Shown here: piece by piece, positions 1 through 10,015 of the stretch
How the letters are laid out: each line of letters begins with the position of its first letter
Position numbering within the stretch: the first letter of the stretch is position 1
Assembly (NCBI GenBank): GCA_947259215.1
Contig: CAMYLJ010000050.1
Coordinates: forward strand, 1 to 42,738
DNA from: an uncultured delta proteobacterium
GTDB lineage: Bacteria > Myxococcota_A > UBA9160 > JAFDET01
Reading direction: 5' to 3'
DNA length: 42,738 nucleotides
Notes under the pieces: generated by a model
Databases searched by the model: none
The model's input: only the letters and a program-made list of their open reading frames with translations
Told to the model about the DNA's origin: nothing
Translations under genes and position numbers: made by a program

Positions 1-324
1 GCCGTAGGCGGGATGCACCACGCCGACTTCGGGCTTGCGACCGACGCTGTACATGAGCCGATTCACACGCCGCTCCGTGACGTGAGGCGGGAACTCGAAT
101 TCGCCCCGTTCGTTGGTCGTCTGCCAGCGCCAGTCGATGGCCTCGACCGCGAGGCTCCAGCGCAGGCCGATGTTGCGGATCACGAACACCTCGGCGCCGT
201 CGACGGGCTCGCCAGACGCCTTGTCGACCACCGTGCCCGCAATCCGCGGTGTGCGGACCCGAGCACATCCCCCGAGGATCAGCGCAGCCGCGAGAAGCGC
301 ACTCAGTAGTCGTAGACCTGCCAT
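1..324 (-). CDS. Lipoprotein with carboxypeptidase-regulatory-like domain (partial)
   Basis: Reading leftward from an ATG at 324, the frame stays open to the window edge (108 codons visible), so the C-terminus is missing. The first 20 or so residues are a lipoprotein signal ending in a lipobox (LGGC, Cys about residue 20), so the product is probably anchored in the envelope. The next stretch, IAGTVVDKASGEPVDGAEVFV, has the pattern of a CarboxypepD_reg-like (transthyretin-like) beta-sandwich domain, which is a binding or structural module rather than an enzyme. It lies on the element side of the tRNA remnant, so it is probably cargo of the integrated element. It reads the same way as the integrase, 237 bases downstream. 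Function unknown. Confidence 0.7.
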   Translation of the reverse strand, partial: MAGLRLLSALLAAALILGGCARVRTPRIAGTVVDKASGEPVDGAEVFVIRNIGLRWSLAVEAIDWRWQTTNERGEFEFPPHVTERRVNRLMYSVGRKPEVGVVHPAYG

Positions 325-561
325 ATTCCGTCCCCCACATCCCGCTGGACGACCAACCGCCAACAGCGGGTGAGCGACCGCACGGGTCGCATCGACCGGC
401 TCGGAGGTGATGTTGAGCCAGGCAGCTGCGGACCCCTCCAGCGATGTCGTGGAGTGCAAGGATAAAGGGACCGGACGCTTTCGGAGATCCGCTCGCAACA
501 CCGGACGGTTGCGTCCCGGAGGACGAGCTGCGACGGGCGCCGCGCGAGGATCGTGGATGGG

Positions 562-1815
562 TCAGGGGACGACGTTGGCCGCGACCGATTCGCGCCGCGG
601 CTCCGGCACTTCCCGCGCCGAACTCGAGCCGCTCGCCGGCTCCGAAGGCGCCGCCGAGCCGGTCAACGCCGCCAGGACGGCGCGCGAGTGGTCCTCCAGG
701 GCCTCCCGGGCGCTGTCGCTGGCGAGCCGGGCGTAGACCGCCGTGGTGGCGGGGGAGCGGTGGTTCAGGACGTGCCCGATGAGGTGGAGTGAGGCGCCCG
801 CCTGGGCGAGCCAGCTTCCGACCGTGCGCCGGAGGTCGTGGAGGCGAGCGTCCTCGCAGCCGGCGGCCTTGCGGATCCGCCGCCAGGCCGAATCCACCTG
901 GCCCACCGTCGTGCACTCGCCCTTGCGCGGGCCCGCAAAGACGTAGTGCGAACCACCTCCTCGCGGAAGGCTCTTCAGGATCTGCCGGGCAGGCTCCGTC
1001 AGGGGCACGAAGTGGGTTCGGTCGTTCTTGGTGTTGCGGATCCGGAGCAGGCCCGAGTCGAAGTCGACGTCGCGCCACTCGACGCGGAGGAGCTCGCGCT
1101 TGCGGCAGCCGGTCAAGAGCAAGAGCCAGAAGTACGCCCGGATCTGGATGCTGGGGTCGCTCTCCACCGCCTGCACGAGGGCCCTGACCTCGGCGGGCTT
1201 GAGCCAGCGATCCCGCGACTCCTCCCGGAAGCGGCGCACGCCCCGGGCCGGATTCGGGTGGCCTTCGGGGAGAAGTCCTTCGCGCTCGGCCCACGAGAAG
1301 AGGTGCGAGACCAGCGCCAGGGTCCGGTTGGCGACGTAGCGACCGCGCTCACCGATGGCCCGGTGCAGCGTCGCCACGTCCGTTCGGCGGATGCCCTGGG
1401 CCTTGCGGCTGCCCCAGGCCGGCACCACGTACTGCGCCAGGCGCTGCTCGTCGTCGCGCCAGCTCCGTTTGTGCGGCCGCGAGTGCTCCTCCAGGTAGAG
1501 ATTCGAGAGCTGGCGCACCGTGAGGGCGCGGCGAGCGCGTTTGCGCTCCTGCGCGGGGTCCCCACCGCGCACGGCCTCGGCCAGGACCTTCCTCGCCTGC
1601 TGGCGCGCCTCGTCGGCGGTCAGCTCGCCGAAGCGACCGATCGAGACGAGCCGCTTCTCACCCGCCTCGCTGCGGTAGAAGACGACGAACGTCTTGGTGC
1701 CGCTCGGAAGCACGCGCAGCCCGAAGCCGCGCAGGTGCGCGTCCCAAACGATCGACCAGCCCGTCCCCTGGGCCACCGCCGCATCACAGCTCCGCTTGTT
1801 CAGCCTCGTCCGCAA
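562..1815 (-). CDS. Tyrosine-type site-specific integrase (DUF4102/P4-like)
   Basis: This 417-residue recombinase should integrate and excise a genomic island or prophage at a tRNA gene. Residues about 5-90 form the arm-type DNA-binding domain typical of P4-like integrases (SCDAAV, RGFGLRVLPSG, VSIGRFGELTADEAR). Residues about 100-190 are the core-binding domain. The catalytic domain shows Arg238 (GCRKRE), Lys263, His326/Arg329 (HDLRR), His348 (GHVLNH) and the nucleophile Tyr361 (TAVYARL), so it looks active. A TTG is the first codon after an in-frame stop and follows a GGGAG Shine-Dalgarno-like sequence. The last 40 or so residues are a low-complexity Ser/Pro/Glu tail. It reads away from the tRNA-Ser remnant about 165 bases upstream, the usual arrangement of an integrase at the end of its element. 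Confidence 0.93.
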   Translation of the reverse strand: MRTRLNKRSCDAAVAQGTGWSIVWDAHLRGFGLRVLPSGTKTFVVFYRSEAGEKRLVSIGRFGELTADEARQQARKVLAEAVRGGDPAQERKRARRALTVRQLSNLYLEEHSRPHKRSWRDDEQRLAQYVVPAWGSRKAQGIRRTDVATLHRAIGERGRYVANRTLALVSHLFSWAEREGLLPEGHPNPARGVRRFREESRDRWLKPAEVRALVQAVESDPSIQIRAYFWLLLLTGCRKRELLRVEWRDVDFDSGLLRIRNTKNDRTHFVPLTEPARQILKSLPRGGGSHYVFAGPRKGECTTVGQVDSAWRRIRKAAGCEDARLHDLRRTVGSWLAQAGASLHLIGHVLNHRSPATTAVYARLASDSAREALEDHSRAVLAALTGSAAPSEPASGSSSAREVPEPRRESVAANVVP

Positions 1816-1832
1816 TCACCTGACTCCCGATT

Positions 1833-1853
1833 TTGTGGGCAGATTGTGGGCAG
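1833..1853. repeat. Tandem 10-bp direct repeat beside the integrase start
   Basis: Two abutting copies of TTGTGGGCAG (1833-1842 and 1844-1853) lie between the integrase start and the tRNA remnant. Short direct repeats in this position are typical of integrase arm-type binding sites. That role is inferred from location and repetition only. Confidence 0.45.
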
Positions 1854-1978
1854 GCGCGAGGCGAAACCGGTCGCAGCCTGACGCGACCCAGGATGCCCGC
1901 TGGCGGGAATAAGTCAACGAGAATCAGAGGTTCGGCGTAAGGCAGCGCGCTCGGTCGCACCCCGGCGAAACCGGGCTT

Positions 1979-2042
1979 TGCTGACTCGAAATCAGGTGAT
2001 GGGCTTGCTCATCCGTGGGTTCGAATCCCACCCTCTCCGCCA
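1979..2042 (+). pseudogene. tRNA-Ser(CGA) 3' fragment, probable attachment site
   Basis: The sequence holds an anticodon stem CTGA/TCAG around loop CTCGAAA (anticodon CGA). It also holds a class II variable arm (GATGGG-CTTG-CTCATC), a perfect T arm (GTGGG TTCGAAT CCCAC), an acceptor strand CCTCTCC, discriminator G and encoded CCA. The matching 5' acceptor strand (GGAGAGG) and a D arm are absent within the expected distance upstream. It is therefore not a complete tRNA gene but a tRNA 3' copy, as left at one end of an element integrated into tRNA-Ser. The orientation places the element to the left and original chromosome to the right; the restored tRNA should lie beyond the left edge of the window. 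Confidence 0.75.
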
Positions 2043-2069
2043 CGGCCCTCCGTCGCCAAGATTCCCGCG

Positions 2070-2303
2070 TCAGGGCCGCGGAGCGGACCCGAGCGCATTG
2101 CCCGCGAGCGTGATGCCCTCCAGGTGGGGCAGCAGCTCGCGATGGACCGCGATCACCTGGCTGTTAGGGAGCGAGAGTCCCGGCAGCCACTCCGAGCCGG
2201 TGGGCATCGGAGACCGGTCCCAGTAGACGACCCGCCTGCGCCCGCCCGCGCTCAGCGACTCGGCGTCGGCCGGATTCGGCGGATCAGAGGTAGCCGAGGG
2301 CAC
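2070..2303 (-). pseudogene. Possible remnant of a FAD-dependent oxidase C-terminus
   Basis: A 77-codon frame next to the attachment site. Its last 50 residues contain VVYWDRSPMP and a terminal LPHLEGITLAGNALGS. This resembles the end of protoporphyrinogen-oxidase or amine-oxidase-like flavoproteins, where a xxGLxLAGN segment completes the FAD site. No N-terminal Rossmann GxGxxG part is found nearby. It overlaps the 3' end of the sulfatase by about 20 bases. The most likely reading is a truncated fragment left when the locus was rearranged near the integration site. The family assignment is weak. Confidence 0.3.
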
Positions 2304-4353
2304 GCAGCTGCTCCTCTTCCTCCTCGGTCAGGACGCGCGGGCTTCCCGCCTCCTCGCTGGCCTCCATCTCCGCCAGCCAGGCATCCAGGAGGCGCCGGGT
2401 CTCGGCGAGCCGATCCGGCTCCGCCCGGGACCGATCGTGCTGCGCGTCGGGATCCCGGCGCAGGTCGAACAGGCTCTCCACACCCCGACCGTGATCCTGG
2501 ATCAGCTTCCAGCCCTGGCTCTCCACGGCGGAGATTCGCACCCGCTTTCCCGACGCCAGCCGCGCGTCGGGAAGCCAGACCTCCGAGAACGCGCGGTCGG
2601 CGTTCTCGGACGCGCCGGGCGTGCCCCGGATCAGCGGCAACAAATTCGTCTCCGCGCCGAAACGCTGCGAATCGACGCCCAGGAACTCGAGGACGGTGCC
2701 GAAGACCGCCCGCGTCTCCACCGTCTCCTCGACCCGCGGCTCCACGGGCTCGGGGCCCGGCAGGGCCACGATCAGCGGCACCCGGGTCGCCTCGTCGTGC
2801 AGCGAGATGGTATGCCCCAACCAACCGCGTTCCATGAACTCCTCGCCGTGGTCCGCCAGCACCACGATGCCCGTGCTCCGATCCAGCTGCCGCTCGGCGA
2901 GCGCCGAGAGCAGCCTGCCGATCTGCCGATCCGTGTAGGCCACCTCCTCGGCGTAGAGGTCGCGCAGGTACTGCAGGTCCTCGGGGCCGAGTAGGTGCCG
3001 GACCCGCCGCAGGCGCGAGAGGTCCAGGGGATCGTCGCGCAGCCAGCCGCGGTAGCCGCCGGCGAGGTCCCACCCTTCGTGGTCCCGGTACTCGTAGTGG
3101 GGATCGAAGTAGTGCACGTAGAGGAAGAAGGGGCCGCCGGCCAGCCGGTCGAGCAGTCCGATCGCCGCGTCCGTCACCGAGTGCGAGGTGATCTCCCAGT
3201 GCCCCAGCACGTTGTCCTGGTCGAAGTGATCGAAGCCCTGGGCCATGCCGACCCACGAGCTGACGTACGTGTGGCTCACCACCGCCCCGGTGCGGAACCC
3301 CGCCTCGCGCAGGATCTCGGCCAGGGTGTACTCGCTGGCGCGGAGGCTGCCCGTCAGGGAGTAGGCGCCGTGCTCCCGCGGATAGCGGCCCGTCATCACC
3401 GAGGCGAAAGCCGGCAGGGTCCAAGGCGCCTGGGAGACGGCGCGCCCGAAGGCCGTTCCGCGATCCGCGAGCCGCTGGAGCGAAGGCGTGAGATCGCCGC
3501 GGCGGGGGTTCAGGAACGTGTAATCCCCCCGCAGCGTGTCGATGCCGATGATGACGAGGTTGCGCGCACTCCCGTCCGCCGCGGCGGCGGGGTAACGGAA
3601 GCCGAGCCAGAAGGCACTCAGCGCCGGCAGCAGCAGGAGCGCCAGCCAGAGCCACATTCCCACGCCCCGAGGCGCGCGCAGCAGCGGACCCTCCGCTGCC
3701 ACTCGCCTGACGGGAAACCGGACCACCAGGTAGGACGCGATCGCCAGCATCGCCGCCAGCGACAGCAGCGGCTCCCGACGCGAGAATCGCTCGCTCAGGC
3801 CCGGGCTGAACTTCAACAGACCTCCCGCCAGGACCAGGGAGCCGCAGAGGAAGACGAACCACAGCTTGGAGAAGCGCTCCGGATCGCCGGATCGACCTTC
3901 GAGGAAGCTCAGGCCCAGCCACAGCGCGGACCAGAGCACGGCGGCGGCGAGGAAGATCCAGACGTCGTGGTCCGTGATGGCGCCCCAGAAGATGGCGCGC
4001 ACCCCGAGCAGCACGAGCGCGCAGGGAAAGGAGAGCAGCCACGCGCTTCGGGCCGGCAGGAGCGACAGGATCGGCGACTCGGTCGTGGTGAGGAAGCGGA
4101 GCAGACCCGCGGCCGCGACACACGAGGCGCCGAGAGCGAGGCCAGCGAGCGCGAACCGCCGGGTTTTTTGCGCCAGCAGCAGGAGAACGCTGCGCTCGAA
4201 GCCGTCGGCGAGGTAGCCCTGGCGGCGCACCTCCGCCAGCGTGTCTCCCACCCCCAGCAGCACGGCCAACGACGCGAAGATCAGCAGCAGGTACGCTGCG
4301 CCCAGCCCCACCGAGAGTCGCTCACCGGAGCGCCGCGTTGCCCAACCTCGCAA
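2284..4353 (-). CDS. Membrane-anchored sulfatase-family hydrolase (Thr type)
   Basis: A 689-residue protein with about seven hydrophobic segments in the first 260 residues, then a sulfatase (alkaline phosphatase superfamily, PF00884) domain. The domain begins VIIGIDTLRGD (metal Asp) and carries FDPHYEYR and ADHGEEF as metal ligands. The nucleophile motif reads APWTLPAFASVMTGRYPREHG. The residue normally Cys or Ser, which becomes formylglycine, is Thr here, as in many sulfatase-like phosphoryl or alkyl-group hydrolases and transferases. The substrate is unknown and sulfate-ester activity is doubtful. The protein ends in LRALGYL, nearly the same ending as the second sulfatase at 11335-12744. 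The start is a TTG just 7 nt after an extended -10 (TGGTATCAT), so the mRNA may be leaderless. No in-frame ATG lies upstream. Confidence 0.88.
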   Translation of the reverse strand: MRGWATRRSGERLSVGLGAAYLLLIFASLAVLLGVGDTLAEVRRQGYLADGFERSVLLLLAQKTRRFALAGLALGASCVAAAGLLRFLTTTESPILSLLPARSAWLLSFPCALVLLGVRAIFWGAITDHDVWIFLAAAVLWSALWLGLSFLEGRSGDPERFSKLWFVFLCGSLVLAGGLLKFSPGLSERFSRREPLLSLAAMLAIASYLVVRFPVRRVAAEGPLLRAPRGVGMWLWLALLLLPALSAFWLGFRYPAAAADGSARNLVIIGIDTLRGDYTFLNPRRGDLTPSLQRLADRGTAFGRAVSQAPWTLPAFASVMTGRYPREHGAYSLTGSLRASEYTLAEILREAGFRTGAVVSHTYVSSWVGMAQGFDHFDQDNVLGHWEITSHSVTDAAIGLLDRLAGGPFFLYVHYFDPHYEYRDHEGWDLAGGYRGWLRDDPLDLSRLRRVRHLLGPEDLQYLRDLYAEEVAYTDRQIGRLLSALAERQLDRSTGIVVLADHGEEFMERGWLGHTISLHDEATRVPLIVALPGPEPVEPRVEETVETRAVFGTVLEFLGVDSQRFGAETNLLPLIRGTPGASENADRAFSEVWLPDARLASGKRVRISAVESQGWKLIQDHGRGVESLFDLRRDPDAQHDRSRAEPDRLAETRRLLDAWLAEMEASEEAGSPRVLTEEEEEQLRALGYL

Positions 4354-4360
4354 GCGGCAG

Positions 4361-4369
4361 ATGATACCA
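4361..4369 (-). promoter_or_regulatory. Extended -10 promoter of the sulfatase gene
   Basis: On the minus strand this reads TGGTATCAT (TG-N-TATCAT). The TTG start codon of the sulfatase begins 7 nt downstream, so transcription would begin at or next to the start codon. No clear -35 box is visible. Confidence 0.5.
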
Positions 4370-4422
4370 GCCGCGGCGCGCGAAATCCCCTGGGGGCCGC
4401 CTCCCTGGCGCCAGCTCGCGGC

Positions 4423-4431
4423 TGGTACGCT
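4423..4431 (+). promoter_or_regulatory. Extended -10 promoter, divergent from the sulfatase
   Basis: Reads TCTGG-like context then TGGTACGCT, an extended -10 (TG-N-TACGCT) back to back with the sulfatase promoter in the 84-base divergent gap. A GTG codon begins 6 nt downstream at 4438 and opens a short frame coupled to the SGNH hydrolase gene. Confidence 0.45.
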
Positions 4432-4437
4432 TGCGGC

Positions 4438-4464
4438 GTGACGCGCGGACCGGACGAGGCATGA
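4438..4464 (+). other. Possible 8-codon leaderless leader ORF
   Basis: A GTG located 6 nt after the TACGCT -10 box opens GTG-ACG-CGC-GGA-CCG-GAC-GAG-GCA-TGA. Its stop overlaps the ATG at 4461 in an ATGA arrangement. This would allow a ribosome to load on a leaderless mRNA and reinitiate at 4461. The frame is very short and could be chance. Confidence 0.3.
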
Positions 4465-4571
4465 GCCGAGCGAGCGAGCTGGGGGGCGTCGCCCTGTTGG
4501 TCCTCTTCGGTCTGGGAGTCGGGCTCGCCGCGGGCGAGGTCGCCGCGCGCCTGGTCTGGAGCGCGCCCTGA
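4461..4571 (+). pseudogene. N-terminal anchor of the SGNH hydrolase, cut off by TGA
   Basis: From an ATG at 4461 this frame encodes one hydrophobic segment (GGVALLVLFGLGVGLAAG) followed by EVAARLVWSAP, and then meets a TGA at 4569-4571. The same frame resumes with YDRLVAEQEPRTGH and runs into the SGNH domain. An N-terminal membrane anchor followed by such a linker is what exported SGNH hydrolases of this kind normally have. The anchor and the downstream domain were therefore probably one gene, now interrupted by a nonsense codon or a base-call error. Confidence 0.65.
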
Positions 4572-4583
4572 TACGACCGGCTC

Positions 4584-5438
4584 GTGGCCGAGCAGGAGCC
4601 GAGGACCGGGCATCCGTACCCGCGAAACCAGTGGGGCATGCGGGACGTGGACTACGGACCGAAGCCCACGGGCCGCAAGCGCGTGCTGATGCTCGGCGAT
4701 TCCTTCACCTACGGGCTCGGCGTCTACGACGAGACGCAGATCTTCCCGGCGATCCTGGAGCGGCGGCTGAACGAGATGGACCGCTTTCCCGGTGGCGTGG
4801 ACGTGCTGAACGCGGCGGAGCCGGGTTCGCTGACGGGAGACTGGCTCGAATCGTACCAGCGCGCGGTCGCGGAGTTCGATCCCGACGTCGTGATCGCGGT
4901 CTTCTTCCTGCGCGACGGAACCCGGCTCGGCTCGATGCCCAATTTCTTCGGTCCGCTGCGCGACGAGGTGGTTCGCCGGAACCGGGCGTCGCAGCTCTAC
5001 CGGGTCTCCTACCTGTACCGGCTCGTGCGAGACCGCCTGGATTGGAACCTCGTCGCCGAGCGTTACACGCGAGAGATGATCGACGCCTACCTCGGCAGCG
5101 AGGAGCAGACCGCGGAATGGACGGCGGCCTCGCGGCACCTTCGGCAGCTTCGAGACCAGGCTCAGCAGCGGGGGGCGCGCTTCGGCCTGGTGATCTTCCC
5201 GGTGCTGGTGCAGCTCGACGAGGGCTATCCCTTCCTGGAGATCTGCGACCTGCTCGAGGCGTACGCGGGCGAGCAGCTCGAGGTGCCCCTGCACAGCCTG
5301 CTGCCGGCCTTCCTGGGTGAGGACGCGCCGGACCTGTGGGTGTCGCCCATGAACCAGCACCCGAATGCCCGCGGCCACGCCATCGCGGCCGACTCGCTGC
5401 TCCCGTTCGTGGTCGGCCTCGTCGACAACGACGCCTGA
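4584..5438 (+). CDS. SGNH/GDSL-type hydrolase, separated from its anchor by TGA
   Basis: The 284-residue frame from GTG 4584 carries the SGNH block I motif VLMLGDSFTYG (nucleophile Ser) and a C-terminal block SPMNQHPNARGH holding the catalytic His. The usual Asp of this block is replaced by Asn or Met, so activity needs checking. Families like this act as lipases, esterases or O-acetylation-related enzymes on envelope glycans; the substrate here is unknown. GTG 4584 has no good Shine-Dalgarno sequence, and the frame is open upstream to the TGA at 4569. The true start is more likely the ATG at 4461, making the gene disrupted. It reads divergently from the sulfatase and converges on the UPF0489 gene. 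Confidence 0.75.
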   Translation: MAEQEPRTGHPYPRNQWGMRDVDYGPKPTGRKRVLMLGDSFTYGLGVYDETQIFPAILERRLNEMDRFPGGVDVLNAAEPGSLTGDWLESYQRAVAEFDPDVVIAVFFLRDGTRLGSMPNFFGPLRDEVVRRNRASQLYRVSYLYRLVRDRLDWNLVAERYTREMIDAYLGSEEQTAEWTAASRHLRQLRDQAQQRGARFGLVIFPVLVQLDEGYPFLEICDLLEAYAGEQLEVPLHSLLPAFLGEDAPDLWVSPMNQHPNARGHAIAADSLLPFVVGLVDNDA

Positions 5439-5453
5439 CCGCGGGCGCGCGCA

Positions 5454-6626
5454 CTACGGCTGCGGGGCCGGGAGCTGCCCGGGATCGAAGCGGATGCGGG
5501 CCCCTCCCAGGGTCGCGGCCAGCTCGCGCAGCAGCGTCCACTCGATCCGCGGCCACTCGCGCCGGGGCGTGAACCCGTCCTCGACCGAGCGCGCGATCGT
5601 CACCAGCGACGGCCGCAGCTTCCCGCTGCGCAGCAGGTCGCCGATCGCCCGCGCCCGGGCGGCGATCTCTTCCGGGCTCACCTGCGTGTGCTCGGGGAGG
5701 CCCACGAGCTCGCGCCCGTCTGCCAGGAGCTGCTCCGTGGAGGCGCCCTGGGAGAGGTCGCCCAGGATCCCGTGCAGCCGGTAGAGATCGCGCGGCGTGA
5801 GCCCGCGACGCCAGAGCGTCCACAGGGCGCCCGGCCAGCGGACGAGCGAGCCCGAGCCGAGCGCCTCGACGGACGTCATGAGCCCCTCGAGCTGCTCGAT
5901 GCGCTGCGGCGGGTCCACCGCCAGCCCGAGCTGCTCGGGCGCGAACATCCCGCGCAACGCCTCGAGGTCCGGGTCCGAAAGACCGGCCGCGCGCAGGCGA
6001 TCCGCCGCCGGGTTGTGGGTGGCGAAGGCGTCGAGGTCGATGTCCAGCACGGTCGGCCCGGGTGCCAGGTCCAGGCCGTCCTGCGCGTCCCGGAGCGAGA
6101 CCACCTGGATGCGCACCCGCACCGGGTTGCGCAGCGCCTCGCGCGGCGCCCAGCCCTCGTCCAGCACGTAGTAGTCGCTGGGGTCGTCCACGCGCGGAAG
6201 CCCGGAGGCCACGGTGCCCAGCAGGAAGTCCCGCGGTCCGTCGGGCAGCTGGCTGGCGAACTCCGGCCGCAGCCAGACGACCCGCTCCACCAGGCCGGCG
6301 TGCACGGCCGCCAGCTGGAAGCTGGCGATGTCGACGGCGCCGAGCAGCCGGGCCGGGTCACGCACGCCCGACTCGGGCAGGGGCTGCTTCGGCACCGCCA
6401 GGTCCGGGTGCGCGTCCACGTGCACGACCTGCAGCCCCGAATCCGGAAGGATCCCCTCCGCCGCCGCCTGCAGCCAGTGCGCGAGCACCCGATCGTGGGA
6501 GCCGCAGATCACGACCCGCACGGGCGGTCGTCCCTCCGACTCGCGCGCCGCGCCGACGACCGGCGCCAGGGCCGCCCACGCGACGAGCCCGGCACACGCG
6601 AAACGGATCGGAACGCGAGCCCTCAT
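5454..6626 (-). CDS. Exported UPF0489 (C5orf22-like) family protein
   Basis: A 390-residue protein. The ATG at 6626 was chosen because a strong GGGGAGGGG ribosome site precedes it and it opens directly into a signal peptide (IRFACAGLVAWAALAPVVGAA). The mature part shows VVICGSHDRVLAHW, HVDAHPDLAVP and later VLDIDLDAFATHNP. These His/Asp motifs are hallmarks of UPF0489, a poorly characterised family found also in eukaryotes, with an arginase/deacetylase-like arrangement of probable metal ligands. The enzymatic role is unknown. It converges with the SGNH hydrolase (15-base gap) and is divergent from the small exported protein at 6689. Confidence 0.75.
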   Translation of the reverse strand: MRARVPIRFACAGLVAWAALAPVVGAARESEGRPPVRVVICGSHDRVLAHWLQAAAEGILPDSGLQVVHVDAHPDLAVPKQPLPESGVRDPARLLGAVDIASFQLAAVHAGLVERVVWLRPEFASQLPDGPRDFLLGTVASGLPRVDDPSDYYVLDEGWAPREALRNPVRVRIQVVSLRDAQDGLDLAPGPTVLDIDLDAFATHNPAADRLRAAGLSDPDLEALRGMFAPEQLGLAVDPPQRIEQLEGLMTSVEALGSGSLVRWPGALWTLWRRGLTPRDLYRLHGILGDLSQGASTEQLLADGRELVGLPEHTQVSPEEIAARARAIGDLLRSGKLRPSLVTIARSVEDGFTPRREWPRIEWTLLRELAATLGGARIRFDPGQLPAPQP

Positions 6627-6688
6627 GCGCCTTCCCCTCCCCGCATGGTACAACTCGCTCTCGCCTGAACCCCGAGGAGGTCCCCCCG

Positions 6689-6982
6689 ATGCGATCCCTG
6701 ACCCCGCTGCTCGGCGCCGCTGCACTCGCCCTGGCCACGTCGGCACTGGCGCTACCCGCCACGGCCCAGGCTCCCTCCTTGCGCCGGACGCCGGTGGAAG
6801 TCGATTGCTACCAGAGTGGCATCAAGATCCTGGACGGAGACGCCACCAACTTCGAGGCGCGCTCCGCCGTCGCGGAGTTCATCGACTTCGAGCTGCTGGA
6901 TGGACGCGCCGTCCAGATCCGGCAGGTGGGGACGGCGGTCTGCGTGATCCTCGGCAAGCAGGTCGAAGCCCCGAAGCGGTAG
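6689..6982 (+). CDS. Small exported protein of unknown function
   Basis: A 97-residue protein that begins at ATG 6689 after a strong GAGGAGGT ribosome site. The first 24 residues are a signal peptide (LLGAAALALATSALALPATAQA). The mature protein of about 73 residues has two Cys (CYQSGIKIL and AVCVILGK) that could form a disulfide in the periplasm. I do not recognise a family. It stands alone between the divergent UPF0489 gene and the SRP RNA gene. Confidence 0.75.
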   Translation: MRSLTPLLGAAALALATSALALPATAQAPSLRRTPVEVDCYQSGIKILDGDATNFEARSAVAEFIDFELLDGRAVQIRQVGTAVCVILGKQVEAPKR

Positions 6983-7024
6983 ACCGCGCGCAGCCTCCCG
7001 GCCCCGGGGACTCCCGCTGGCCTG

Positions 7025-7033
7025 TGGTAGATT
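7025..7033 (+). promoter_or_regulatory. ffs: Extended -10 promoter of the SRP RNA
   Basis: Reads TGGTAGATT, with the TG dinucleotide one base before the hexamer TAGATT (7028-7033). The predicted transcription start (about 7040) lies a few bases before the basal stem of the SRP RNA. No good -35 hexamer is seen. Confidence 0.45.
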
Positions 7034-7046
7034 CCCTTGCACGCGC

Positions 7047-7170
<124 letters not shown>

Positions 7171-7200: not shown

Positions 7201-9087
7201 GTGAGCTACCAGGTACTCGCGCGCAGATGGCGACCCGAGGGCTTCGACGAGGTCTTCGGGCAGTCCCACGTCACGACCCCGCTGCGGAACGCCATCCGCA
7301 GCGACCGCGTCCCCCACGCCATCCTGCTGTGCGGTCCGCGCGGCGTCGGCAAGACCACCCTGGCGCGCATCCTGGCGCGCTGCCTGAACTGCGAGAAGGG
7401 GCCCACCGAGACCCCCTGCGGCGCCTGCGGCGCCTGCCAGGAGATCTCCGAGGGACGCTCCACGGACGTGCAGGAGATCGACGCCGCCAGTCGCACCAGC
7501 GTGGACGACGTGCGCGAGCTGATCGAGGCCGTGCGCTACGCGCCCTCCCCCGGCAAGCACCGGATCTTCGTGGTGGACGAGGTGCACATGCTCTCCACCG
7601 CGGCCTTCAACGCGCTGCTGAAGACCCTGGAGGAGCCGCCGCCGCGCAGCCTCTTCGTCTTCTGCACCACCAACCCCGAGAAGATCCCCTTCACCGTGGT
7701 GTCGCGCTGCCAGCGCTACGACCTGCGGCGCATCAAGGCCAGCGACGTGGTCTCCCGGCTCACGGAGGTGTGCAAGGCGGAGGGCGTGACGCTCTCCGAC
7801 ACCAGTCTCCAGGCCATCGCCCGCGAGAGCGAGGGCTCGCTGCGCGACGCCCTGACCCTGCTCGACCAGGTGATCGCCTCCGGCGGCGAAGCGATCGACG
7901 ACGCGCGGGTGGCAGAGCTGCTCGACCTGGTGGATCGCCGCCTGCTGCTGGCGATCGCCGAAGCCTGCGTGGACGGCGACGCCCGGGGCGCGCTCGAAGC
8001 CTGCGGGCGCGCCGCCGAAGCGGGCGTGGACGCGAAGCGCCTGGGCGGCGCCCTGCTCCAGATCCTGCGCGACCTGGTGGTCCTGCGCGTGGCCCCGGAC
8101 GCCGGGCTGGTGGAGGGCGGAGACGCCGAGGTCGCGGAGCTGCGCGCCATCGCGGAGCGCGCCGAGGAGGCGCGCCTGCGCCGCATGTTCCGCGCCCTGG
8201 TGAAGGAGCAGGAAGACCTGGCCTGGGCCCCCCAGCCCCACGCCGTGCTCGAGATGGCGGTGATCCGCCTGGCCCAGATGCCCGCCGGCGACGACGTCGC
8301 CACCCTCCTGGCCCGCCTCGACGCCCTGGAAAAACAGACCCGCGGCGGCGGCGGAAGCGCGCCGGCCGGCGGTTCCGGAGCGACCAGCGGCGGCGGACGA
8401 AGCGCAGCGAGCGGAAGCTCCTCGGCGTCGAGCGAGAAGCGCTCTTCCGCGCGGGCACTGGAGACGGAGCCGCCGAGCCCGGCGAACCCGCCGGAGGCCG
8501 CCGCCCCGCAAGCGCAGCCCGAAGGGCTGCGCGCGCAGCGGTCTCAGCGACAGCGCCAGGCAGCTGGGGAAGTCGGCCCCAGGCCGGCTTCCGACTCTTC
8601 GTCTTCCGAAGGCGAGCGAAGCCATGCTATGGAGAGCCACCCTGGCCCTGCGAATCCTCCGAGCCCCGCGGCCCAGAACGAAACCCCGCCTCCCGACGAC
8701 GCCCCCCTCGACGTCGTCTTCGACCAGCTCCGCCGCTTCGCCCAGCAACGCAACCGGGGACTCTTCGCCGCTCTCGAAGGGGGGCGTCTCGTCCTGCGCG
8801 GAGCGGAGCGCCTGCGCCTGGCGGTGTCCCAGGAGTTCGCGGCGCGGCGCCTGCGGGCCCGCCTCGGCGACCTGGAGGAGGTGTGCCAGGCCTTCTTCGG
8901 GACGCGCCTGCGGGTGGAAGTGGAGTGCGACGCGGCCGAGGGCGACGAAGCCAGCGGGCCCGACGGCAACAGCGACCTCGCCCGCCGACGCCGCCAGGAG
9001 GCCCTGGACCATCCGGCGGTGAATGCGACGCTCGAGGTCCTGGGTGGCGAGATCGTCGAGATCCGCCCGCTCGGAGGCGGCCGGTGA
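7201..9087 (+). CDS. dnaX: DNA polymerase III subunit gamma/tau
   Basis: The 628-residue clamp-loader ATPase loads the sliding clamp during replication. It begins at GTG 7201 (SYQVLARRWRPEGFDEVFGQ, the canonical start of the family). Walker A is GPRGVGKT (residues 45-52), Zn-binding Cys are 61/64/73/76/79, and Walker B is DEVH (126-129), followed by the SRC arginine-finger region. The AAA+ and collar domains run to about residue 370. Residues about 377-500 are a low-complexity Gly/Ser/Pro/Glu linker. A C-terminal tau-like domain (about 505-610, FDQLRRFAQQRNRGLFAALEG) follows. Its TGA overlaps the ybaB start (GTGA), which implies translational coupling. The linker DNA contains a perfect inverted repeat (8512-8532). 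Confidence 0.96.
   Translation: MSYQVLARRWRPEGFDEVFGQSHVTTPLRNAIRSDRVPHAILLCGPRGVGKTTLARILARCLNCEKGPTETPCGACGACQEISEGRSTDVQEIDAASRTSVDDVRELIEAVRYAPSPGKHRIFVVDEVHMLSTAAFNALLKTLEEPPPRSLFVFCTTNPEKIPFTVVSRCQRYDLRRIKASDVVSRLTEVCKAEGVTLSDTSLQAIARESEGSLRDALTLLDQVIASGGEAIDDARVAELLDLVDRRLLLAIAEACVDGDARGALEACGRAAEAGVDAKRLGGALLQILRDLVVLRVAPDAGLVEGGDAEVAELRAIAERAEEARLRRMFRALVKEQEDLAWAPQPHAVLEMAVIRLAQMPAGDDVATLLARLDALEKQTRGGGGSAPAGGSGATSGGGRSAASGSSSASSEKRSSARALETEPPSPANPPEAAAPQAQPEGLRAQRSQRQRQAAGEVGPRPASDSSSSEGERSHAMESHPGPANPPSPAAQNETPPPDDAPLDVVFDQLRRFAQQRNRGLFAALEGGRLVLRGAERLRLAVSQEFAARRLRARLGDLEEVCQAFFGTRLRVEVECDAAEGDEASGPDGNSDLARRRRQEALDHPAVNATLEVLGGEIVEIRPLGGGR
8512..8532. repeat. Perfect inverted repeat inside the dnaX linker
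   Basis: GCGCAGCCC-GAA-GGGCTGCGC is a 9-bp perfect stem with a 3-base GAA loop. The core AGCCCGAAGGGCT recurs at 42463-42473 in an intergenic terminator-like hairpin. Such sharing suggests a small palindromic repeat family that can sit in tolerant coding regions. Confidence 0.45.
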
Positions 9088-9415: not shown

Positions 9416-10015
9416 GTGCGCAGCGCGCCGCCCATCGAGCGCCTGGTCGCCAACCTCAAGCGACTTCCGGGAATCGGAGAGAAGTCCGCGACCCGCCTCG
9501 CCTTCCATCTGCTCGGCAGCGCCGAGAACCAGGTGCAGGAGCTGGCGGACGCCATCGCCCGGGTCAAGAAGGACATCGTGCTGTGCGAGGTCTGCTTCGA
9601 CCTCACCGATCGCTCGCCCTGCGAGATCTGCCGGGCGCCGGACCGCGACACGGCCACGATCTGCGTGGTGGAGGAGCCCGCGGACCTGGCGGCGGTGGAG
9701 GGCACCGGAGGCTTCAAGGGCCGCTATCACGTGCTGGGCGGCGCCCTCTCGCCGATCGACGGTATCGGCCCCGAGGCGCTCCGGATCCGCGAGCTGGAGG
9801 CGCGGGTCGCCCCGGGCGAGGTGCGCGAGGTGATCCTGGCCACCAACCCCAACGCGGAGGGCGACGCCACCGCCCACTACCTGGCGGATCGGCTGCGCCC
9901 GAGCGGGGTCCGGCTGACTCGGATCGCCTACGGCATGCCCCTGGGCGGCGACCTCGAGTACGCCGACCACGTGACGATCGGGCGCTCCCTGGCCAACCGC
10001 AGCGAGCTCGAATGA
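9416..10015 (+). CDS. recR: Recombination mediator RecR
   Basis: A 199-residue RecR, a ring-forming protein that works with RecF/RecO in gap repair and RecA loading. The N-terminal helix-hairpin-helix reads LKRLPGIGEKSATRLAFHLL. The Cys4 zinc motif is CEVCFDLTDRSPCEIC, and the Toprim domain contains VVEEPADLAAVE and ATNPNAEGDATAHYL. The GTG start at 9416 is 2 bases after the ybaB stop. Length matches the family (about 200 residues). Confidence 0.96.
   Translation: MRSAPPIERLVANLKRLPGIGEKSATRLAFHLLGSAENQVQELADAIARVKKDIVLCEVCFDLTDRSPCEICRAPDRDTATICVVEEPADLAAVEGTGGFKGRYHVLGGALSPIDGIGPEALRIRELEARVAPGEVREVILATNPNAEGDATAHYLADRLRPSGVRLTRIAYGMPLGGDLEYADHVTIGRSLANRSELE

Follow-up and report, generated by a model that had tools for sequence, protein, structure and literature searches.

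The window comprises the entire contig C50 (42,738 bases) in a genome assembled into 128 contigs (5.70 Mb, 95.74% complete, contamination estimate 0.82%). Its first 2,043 bases almost certainly form the right-hand portion of an integrative element that inserted into a tRNA-Ser(CGA) gene; the two ends of the element lie on different contigs, and the join between them is unassembled. We observed an intact tRNA gene, an identical displaced fragment, arm repeats shared by both ends, an intact integrase and an empty site in relatives. Insertion into a tRNA gene, with the gene rebuilt at one end and a broken copy left at the other, is a common and well-understood habit of mobile DNA, and the element is ordinary by itself, being of a kind already well known.

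The two ends of the element

The right attachment site, at 1981-2043 on the plus strand of the window, consists of the displaced 3′ part (nt 31-92) of tRNA-Ser(CGA) plus one flanking base, and these 63 nt are identical to C36:4349-4287. The 62 nt belonging to the tRNA match nt 31-92 of the intact gene without a difference (E=4.5e-26), an identity far beyond chance. The initial annotation had described a 3′ partial copy at 1979-2042; the copy is real, but the identity begins at 1981 and runs, with the flanking base, to 2043. Of the five anticodon-stem pairs, four are retained in the fragment, tRNA position 30 having a changed base, and the DNA preceding 1981 is element DNA and not a decayed 5′ half of the tRNA. 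ARAGORN called no tRNA at this site, as expected for a partial gene. An Rfam match to a plastid UTR family (1988-2039, minus strand; 34.7 bits against a gathering score of 68) was dismissed, as it corresponds to the reverse strand of the tRNA fragment.

The left end lies on another contig, C36, where an intact tRNA-Ser(CGA) occupies 4288-4379 on the minus strand and the element continues on its 3′ side from C36:4287 downwards. This bears out the expectations derived from the window: that the element would extend to the left with an intact tRNA-Ser beyond it, that a second copy of the fragment sequence would exist elsewhere in the genome (it is contained in the intact gene), and that the tRNA would be rebuilt at one end with a 3′ copy, here identical and in the same orientation, remaining at the other. 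Both ends also carry, on their inner side, the same 21-bp repeat holding two near-identical words at 11-bp pitch. In the window it is found at 1832-1852 (plus strand), 128 bases before the fragment, and on C36 at 4236-4216, starting after 51 bases past the intact tRNA. With up to two mismatches allowed, the 20-base arm pattern occurs at these two places only in the whole 5.7-Mb genome, and a reversed-pattern control gave zero. These paired words are putative arm-type binding sites of the integrase.

Gene content and extent of the element

The integrase itself, a tyrosine recombinase of 417 aa encoded by an intact open reading frame at 562-1815 on the minus strand and thus transcribed into the element, was correctly recognized by the initial annotation as complete and as standing beside a partial tRNA-Ser(CGA). 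Pfam assigns it Arm-DNA-bind_3 and Phage_integrase domains (PF13356 and PF00589), with a Phage_int_M match falling just below threshold, and it contains the catalytic motifs that we take to be those expected of tyrosine recombinases. Its start codon is TTG, at a position agreeing with the ATG start of a homologue in a relative, G006. The intact frame and the motifs would permit activity, and the element may still be mobile. Homologues at E 1e-30 or better occur in 10 of 60 genomes (own included), the best identities outside the window being 44-48% in that set; the GTDB species collection yielded 15 integrase loci, all at most 33% identical, and no closely similar named relative was found, named integrases being likewise at most 33% identical. 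The protein also matches the general phage integrase family phrog_1, a match that does not decide for a prophage or a phage satellite. Among the scanned proteins, which represent a subset of the reading frames of an element whose interior is possibly incomplete, there were no phage structural or replication genes and no relaxase or conjugation genes.

To the left of the integrase, the open reading frame list gives a lipoprotein-like gene inside the element at 1-501 (minus strand), incomplete at the contig start and with a weak CarboxypepD_reg match under the Pfam cut-off. Over 332 bp this region is 97.6% identical to C36:2163-1832, and its first 99 nt are exact: window bases 1-99 equal C36:2065-2163, and base 100 differs. 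Exact 99-base overlaps also occur at other contig ends of the same assembly (C17/C68/C84 and C23/C37), a few others sharing 67-98 bases, and the overlap resembles a fork in an assembly graph built with k=99. A mixture of strains, a duplication or a misassembly could each have produced the fork. On C36, the frame of the lipoprotein-like gene apparently shifts at about 2160, approximately where the window contig starts; this shift may reflect a deletion or a wrong join.

The simplest reading suggests that C36:2164 joins window base 1 at this fork, giving an element of about 4.1 kb (2124 + 1980 bases). If the join is direct, the element comprises the integrase, lipoprotein-like genes and a DUF433/DUF5615 pair detected by Pfam on the C36:2164-4287 side, which we assume to be a toxin-antitoxin system. 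C36, however, runs on for 2064 bases past the fork, where it carries an Asp-type attachment-site copy at 1093-1169 (minus strand) and PhdYeFM/PIN genes. It is therefore possible, although we hold it to be doubtful, that the element is a larger composite island made up of C36:4287-1, an unassembled stretch and window 1-1980, with the Asp-type site and the Phd/PIN pair within it. The direct join is favoured over such an island by the exact 99-nt start overlap, equal in length to those at other contig junctions, and by the finding that window 1-104 is the sole match to C36:2060-4290 elsewhere in the bin (40 of 208 first-look candidates scored).

Empty sites in relatives

We compared the locus with 29 tRNA-Ser(CGA) loci of relatives and their flanks of up to 1.5 kb (the best 30 loci from 60 genomes, less the genome's own). 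In 8 of the 29, the genes upstream on C36 and the dnaX of the window stand on either side of one intact tRNA-Ser(CGA), which is the uninterrupted site that comparison with genomes lacking the insert was expected to reveal. Because both flanks meet at one tRNA in these loci, C36 and C50 are the two halves of one locus split by the insertion. Among the remaining loci, 6/29 have the upstream side only and 1/29 dnaX only, dnaX thus adjoining the tRNA in 9/29; the 14/29 with neither flank are neutral for the insertion reading, neither helping nor harming it. The right flank of the empty site consists of a small SRP RNA (7060-7160, plus strand; Rfam RF00169), which in those relatives where it and its surroundings align lies 11 to 122 bases downstream of tRNA-Ser(CGA), and of dnaX (7201-9087, plus strand; Pfam).

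Base composition had been proposed as a further sign of foreign origin. The element pieces are indeed lower in G+C (C36:1-2063, 65.7%; C36:2164-4287, 67.9%; window 1-1980, 70.1%) than the flanks (72.1-73.0%), but the gap between 65.7-70.1% and the flanking values is too small for more than a weak test, and we set composition aside as a sign of origin.

SRP RNA and dnaX directly follow the tRNA in empty sites, whereas here 5.0 kb intervene (2044-7059; sulfatase, GDSL lipase and UPF0489 by Pfam) that are absent between tRNA and dnaX in those sites and for which the element gives no explanation. This stretch is probably not part of the tRNA-Ser element. A search before SRP-dnaX for a second tRNA-Ser remnant, which would have identified the stretch as a further island, found none, the best local score being 15 forward and 14 reverse against a shuffle mean of 13.7 and maximum of 17. 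The extra DNA at the same tRNA-Ser site recalls the tandem accretion of integrative elements at one tRNA gene, from which it differs in having no second tRNA-Ser fragment.

Proposed route of insertion and alternatives

We propose that the integrase would attach to the paired arm words on the inner side of each element end and catalyse recombination between the attP of the element and the tRNA gene, the crossover most likely falling in the anticodon loop. The element would supply its own matching 3′ tRNA half, so that the gene at the left end on C36 remains intact, and the 3′ half that originally belonged to the host would be displaced to window 1981-2043. The identity block, which starts at tRNA position 31, on the 5′ side of the anticodon stem, and continues to the CCA end, fits a crossover in the anticodon loop, a location given as one known tRNA crossover sub-site in the available text of two sources (PMC4383910; PMC8371274). 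As far as the accessible part of the Islander description goes (PMC4383910), the element resembles the tRNA-gene islands of class A in its regenerated tRNA, displaced 3′ fragment and internal tyrosine integrase, as well as in an anticodon-centred attachment site, the identity block here reaching the anticodon stem; it departs from them in having its ends on separate contigs, possibly only about 4.1 kb of DNA, and named relatives at most 33% identical. The likeness to integrons is general only, namely a tyrosine recombinase capturing modules at a fixed site; the integrase scores 29.2 bits with NCBIfam integrase_gron against a cut-off of 265, and the site here is a tRNA gene.

An element that integrated long ago by the same route and has since lost its mobility would look similar, and the broken integrase homologue in G006 and the lack of transfer or replication genes in the visible pieces would suit such a remnant. 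The intact frame and catalytic motifs of the window integrase, the identity of the tRNA copies and the perfect agreement of both arm pairs speak against it, and we regard it as rather unlikely. It is very improbable that C36 and C50 come from different organisms through chimeric binning, or that the fragment is an artefact of misassembly: the assembly does have 128 contigs, with the ends on two of them, but the C36 left flank and the C50 right flank together make up a single locus, which is conserved in 8 relatives' loci, the ends share exact sequences of 63 nt and 21 nt, and contamination is estimated at only 0.82%. Least credible, to the point of being almost negligible, is a decayed tRNA duplication bearing no relation to the integrase. 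The presence of the 3′ part alone would agree with it, but the 63/63 identity and sharp 5′ edge leave no decay to account for, the arm repeats are common to the fragment side and the intact-copy side, and in G006 the fragment likewise begins at nt 31, next to the start of an integrase.

Related elements in other genomes

Apart from the genome studied (G000), G006 is the only one of the 60 genomes (own included) with a partial copy of nt 31-92. There the copy is adjoined by a truncated homologue of the same integrase, which answers the concern that the fragment might also occur in relatives without the integrase. Among 79 genomes of the order, the arm pattern with at most one mismatch is present in three (twice in G000, once each in G057 and G006), with controls at zero. 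In G057 an intact tRNA-Ser(CGA) precedes the pattern at a spacing equal to that in G000, which is the layout of a left end, and in G006 it lies between the tRNA-Ser fragment and the start of the integrase homologue (74% identical over 42 aa, then broken), which is the layout of a right end. The intact tRNA-Ser(CGA) of G006 differs from its own fragment at 7/62 positions and is followed within 150 bases by one arm word, not two; because of these differences and the single word, G006 does not hold a simple pair of ends, and it appears as if the 3′ half of its tRNA had been replaced by a later element. The G006 loci are C162, local 9579-9927 (right-end layout with the broken integrase), and C315, 1229-1320 (intact tRNA-Ser(CGA)). 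G030, a member of another family, has a tRNA-Ser(CGA) with 100% identity to the G000 gene, whereas the gene of same-family G002 reaches 95%. The spread of tRNA-Ser(CGA) variable arms is patchy, as if elements swapped tRNA 3′ halves.

Arm words and partial tRNA-Asp copies

The pitch of the arm words recurs beside other integrases. We examined 17 integrases, namely 16 of 18 homologue matches (G037 and the second G019 match being left out) and the G006 fragment. In six of them, the 90 bases upstream of the start contain a direct repeat with 7 or more matches and a pitch of exactly 11 bp; the test was prompted by the window and G006 cases, which are therefore not independent support, and the length and distance limits were set after a first look. 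Other pitches from 8 to 15 gave 0 or 1 cases, and random stretches at pitch 11 about 0.5%. The words differ between most integrases. A second tRNA-targeted integrase lies directly 3′ of tRNA-Pro(GGG), at C23 618-2020; the end of C23 shares a 99-nt overlap with C37, on which two further integrases of the group are located.

The same genome contains 31 partial copies of the 25-base core of the tRNA-Asp(GTC) 3′ end besides the intact gene at C17:153274-153350 (32 in total, counted with at most three substitutions within the contig pieces covered; searching the whole genome yielded 38 matches at E 0.1 or better). Copies were seen on C17 (153274-213197), C44, C68, C97, C62, C64, C57, C52, C28, C75, C115, C42 and C36, mostly in one orientation per contig, and several types of paired arm words, also at about 11-bp pitch, precede them. 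Only two of the 24 integrase genes in the genome lie on these contigs (C17:153478-153975, beside the tRNA, and C62:19608-20135). As a sample of the cargo, 78 frames were picked from C17, C44, C68 and C97 with a rough rule based on composition (one of 79 listed was dropped). Metabolic families (acyl-CoA dehydrogenases, hydrolases and DUF3604) are the most frequent among them, 2/78 frames have a PIN domain, and three defence models match four members in all. Partial tRNA-Asp(GTC) end copies also occur in G002, G006, G023 and G045. A search for the far end of the array, in which C28:1-20000 was compared with the DNA immediately downstream of tRNA-Asp in 29 relatives' loci, gave no match within 1.5 kb. 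The Asp copies look like tandem accretion on an unusual scale, an integron-like array, and are more striking than the Ser element. The Asp-type copy at C36 1093-1169 (minus strand) and its Phd/PIN pair share a contig end with the left end of the Ser element.

One could speculate, with a low probability in our estimation, that the host keeps integron-like cassette stores anchored at tRNA genes, in which small elements, each with private arm words at 11-bp pitch and a tRNA 3′ end, would stand in long arrays served by few integrases, with modules passing between tRNA sites; the Ser element would be a module of this type, its assembly fork bearing an Asp-type site together with a toxin-antitoxin pair. 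If the 11-bp pattern holds, sequence alone could suffice to match an element lacking an integrase with the enzyme that mobilizes it, and the tRNA-Asp arrays would become readable in the same way. The Ser element itself provides, in a high-G+C group, a cleanly bounded integration site at tRNA-Ser(CGA), marked by arm words on the inner side of each end and seen empty in relatives.
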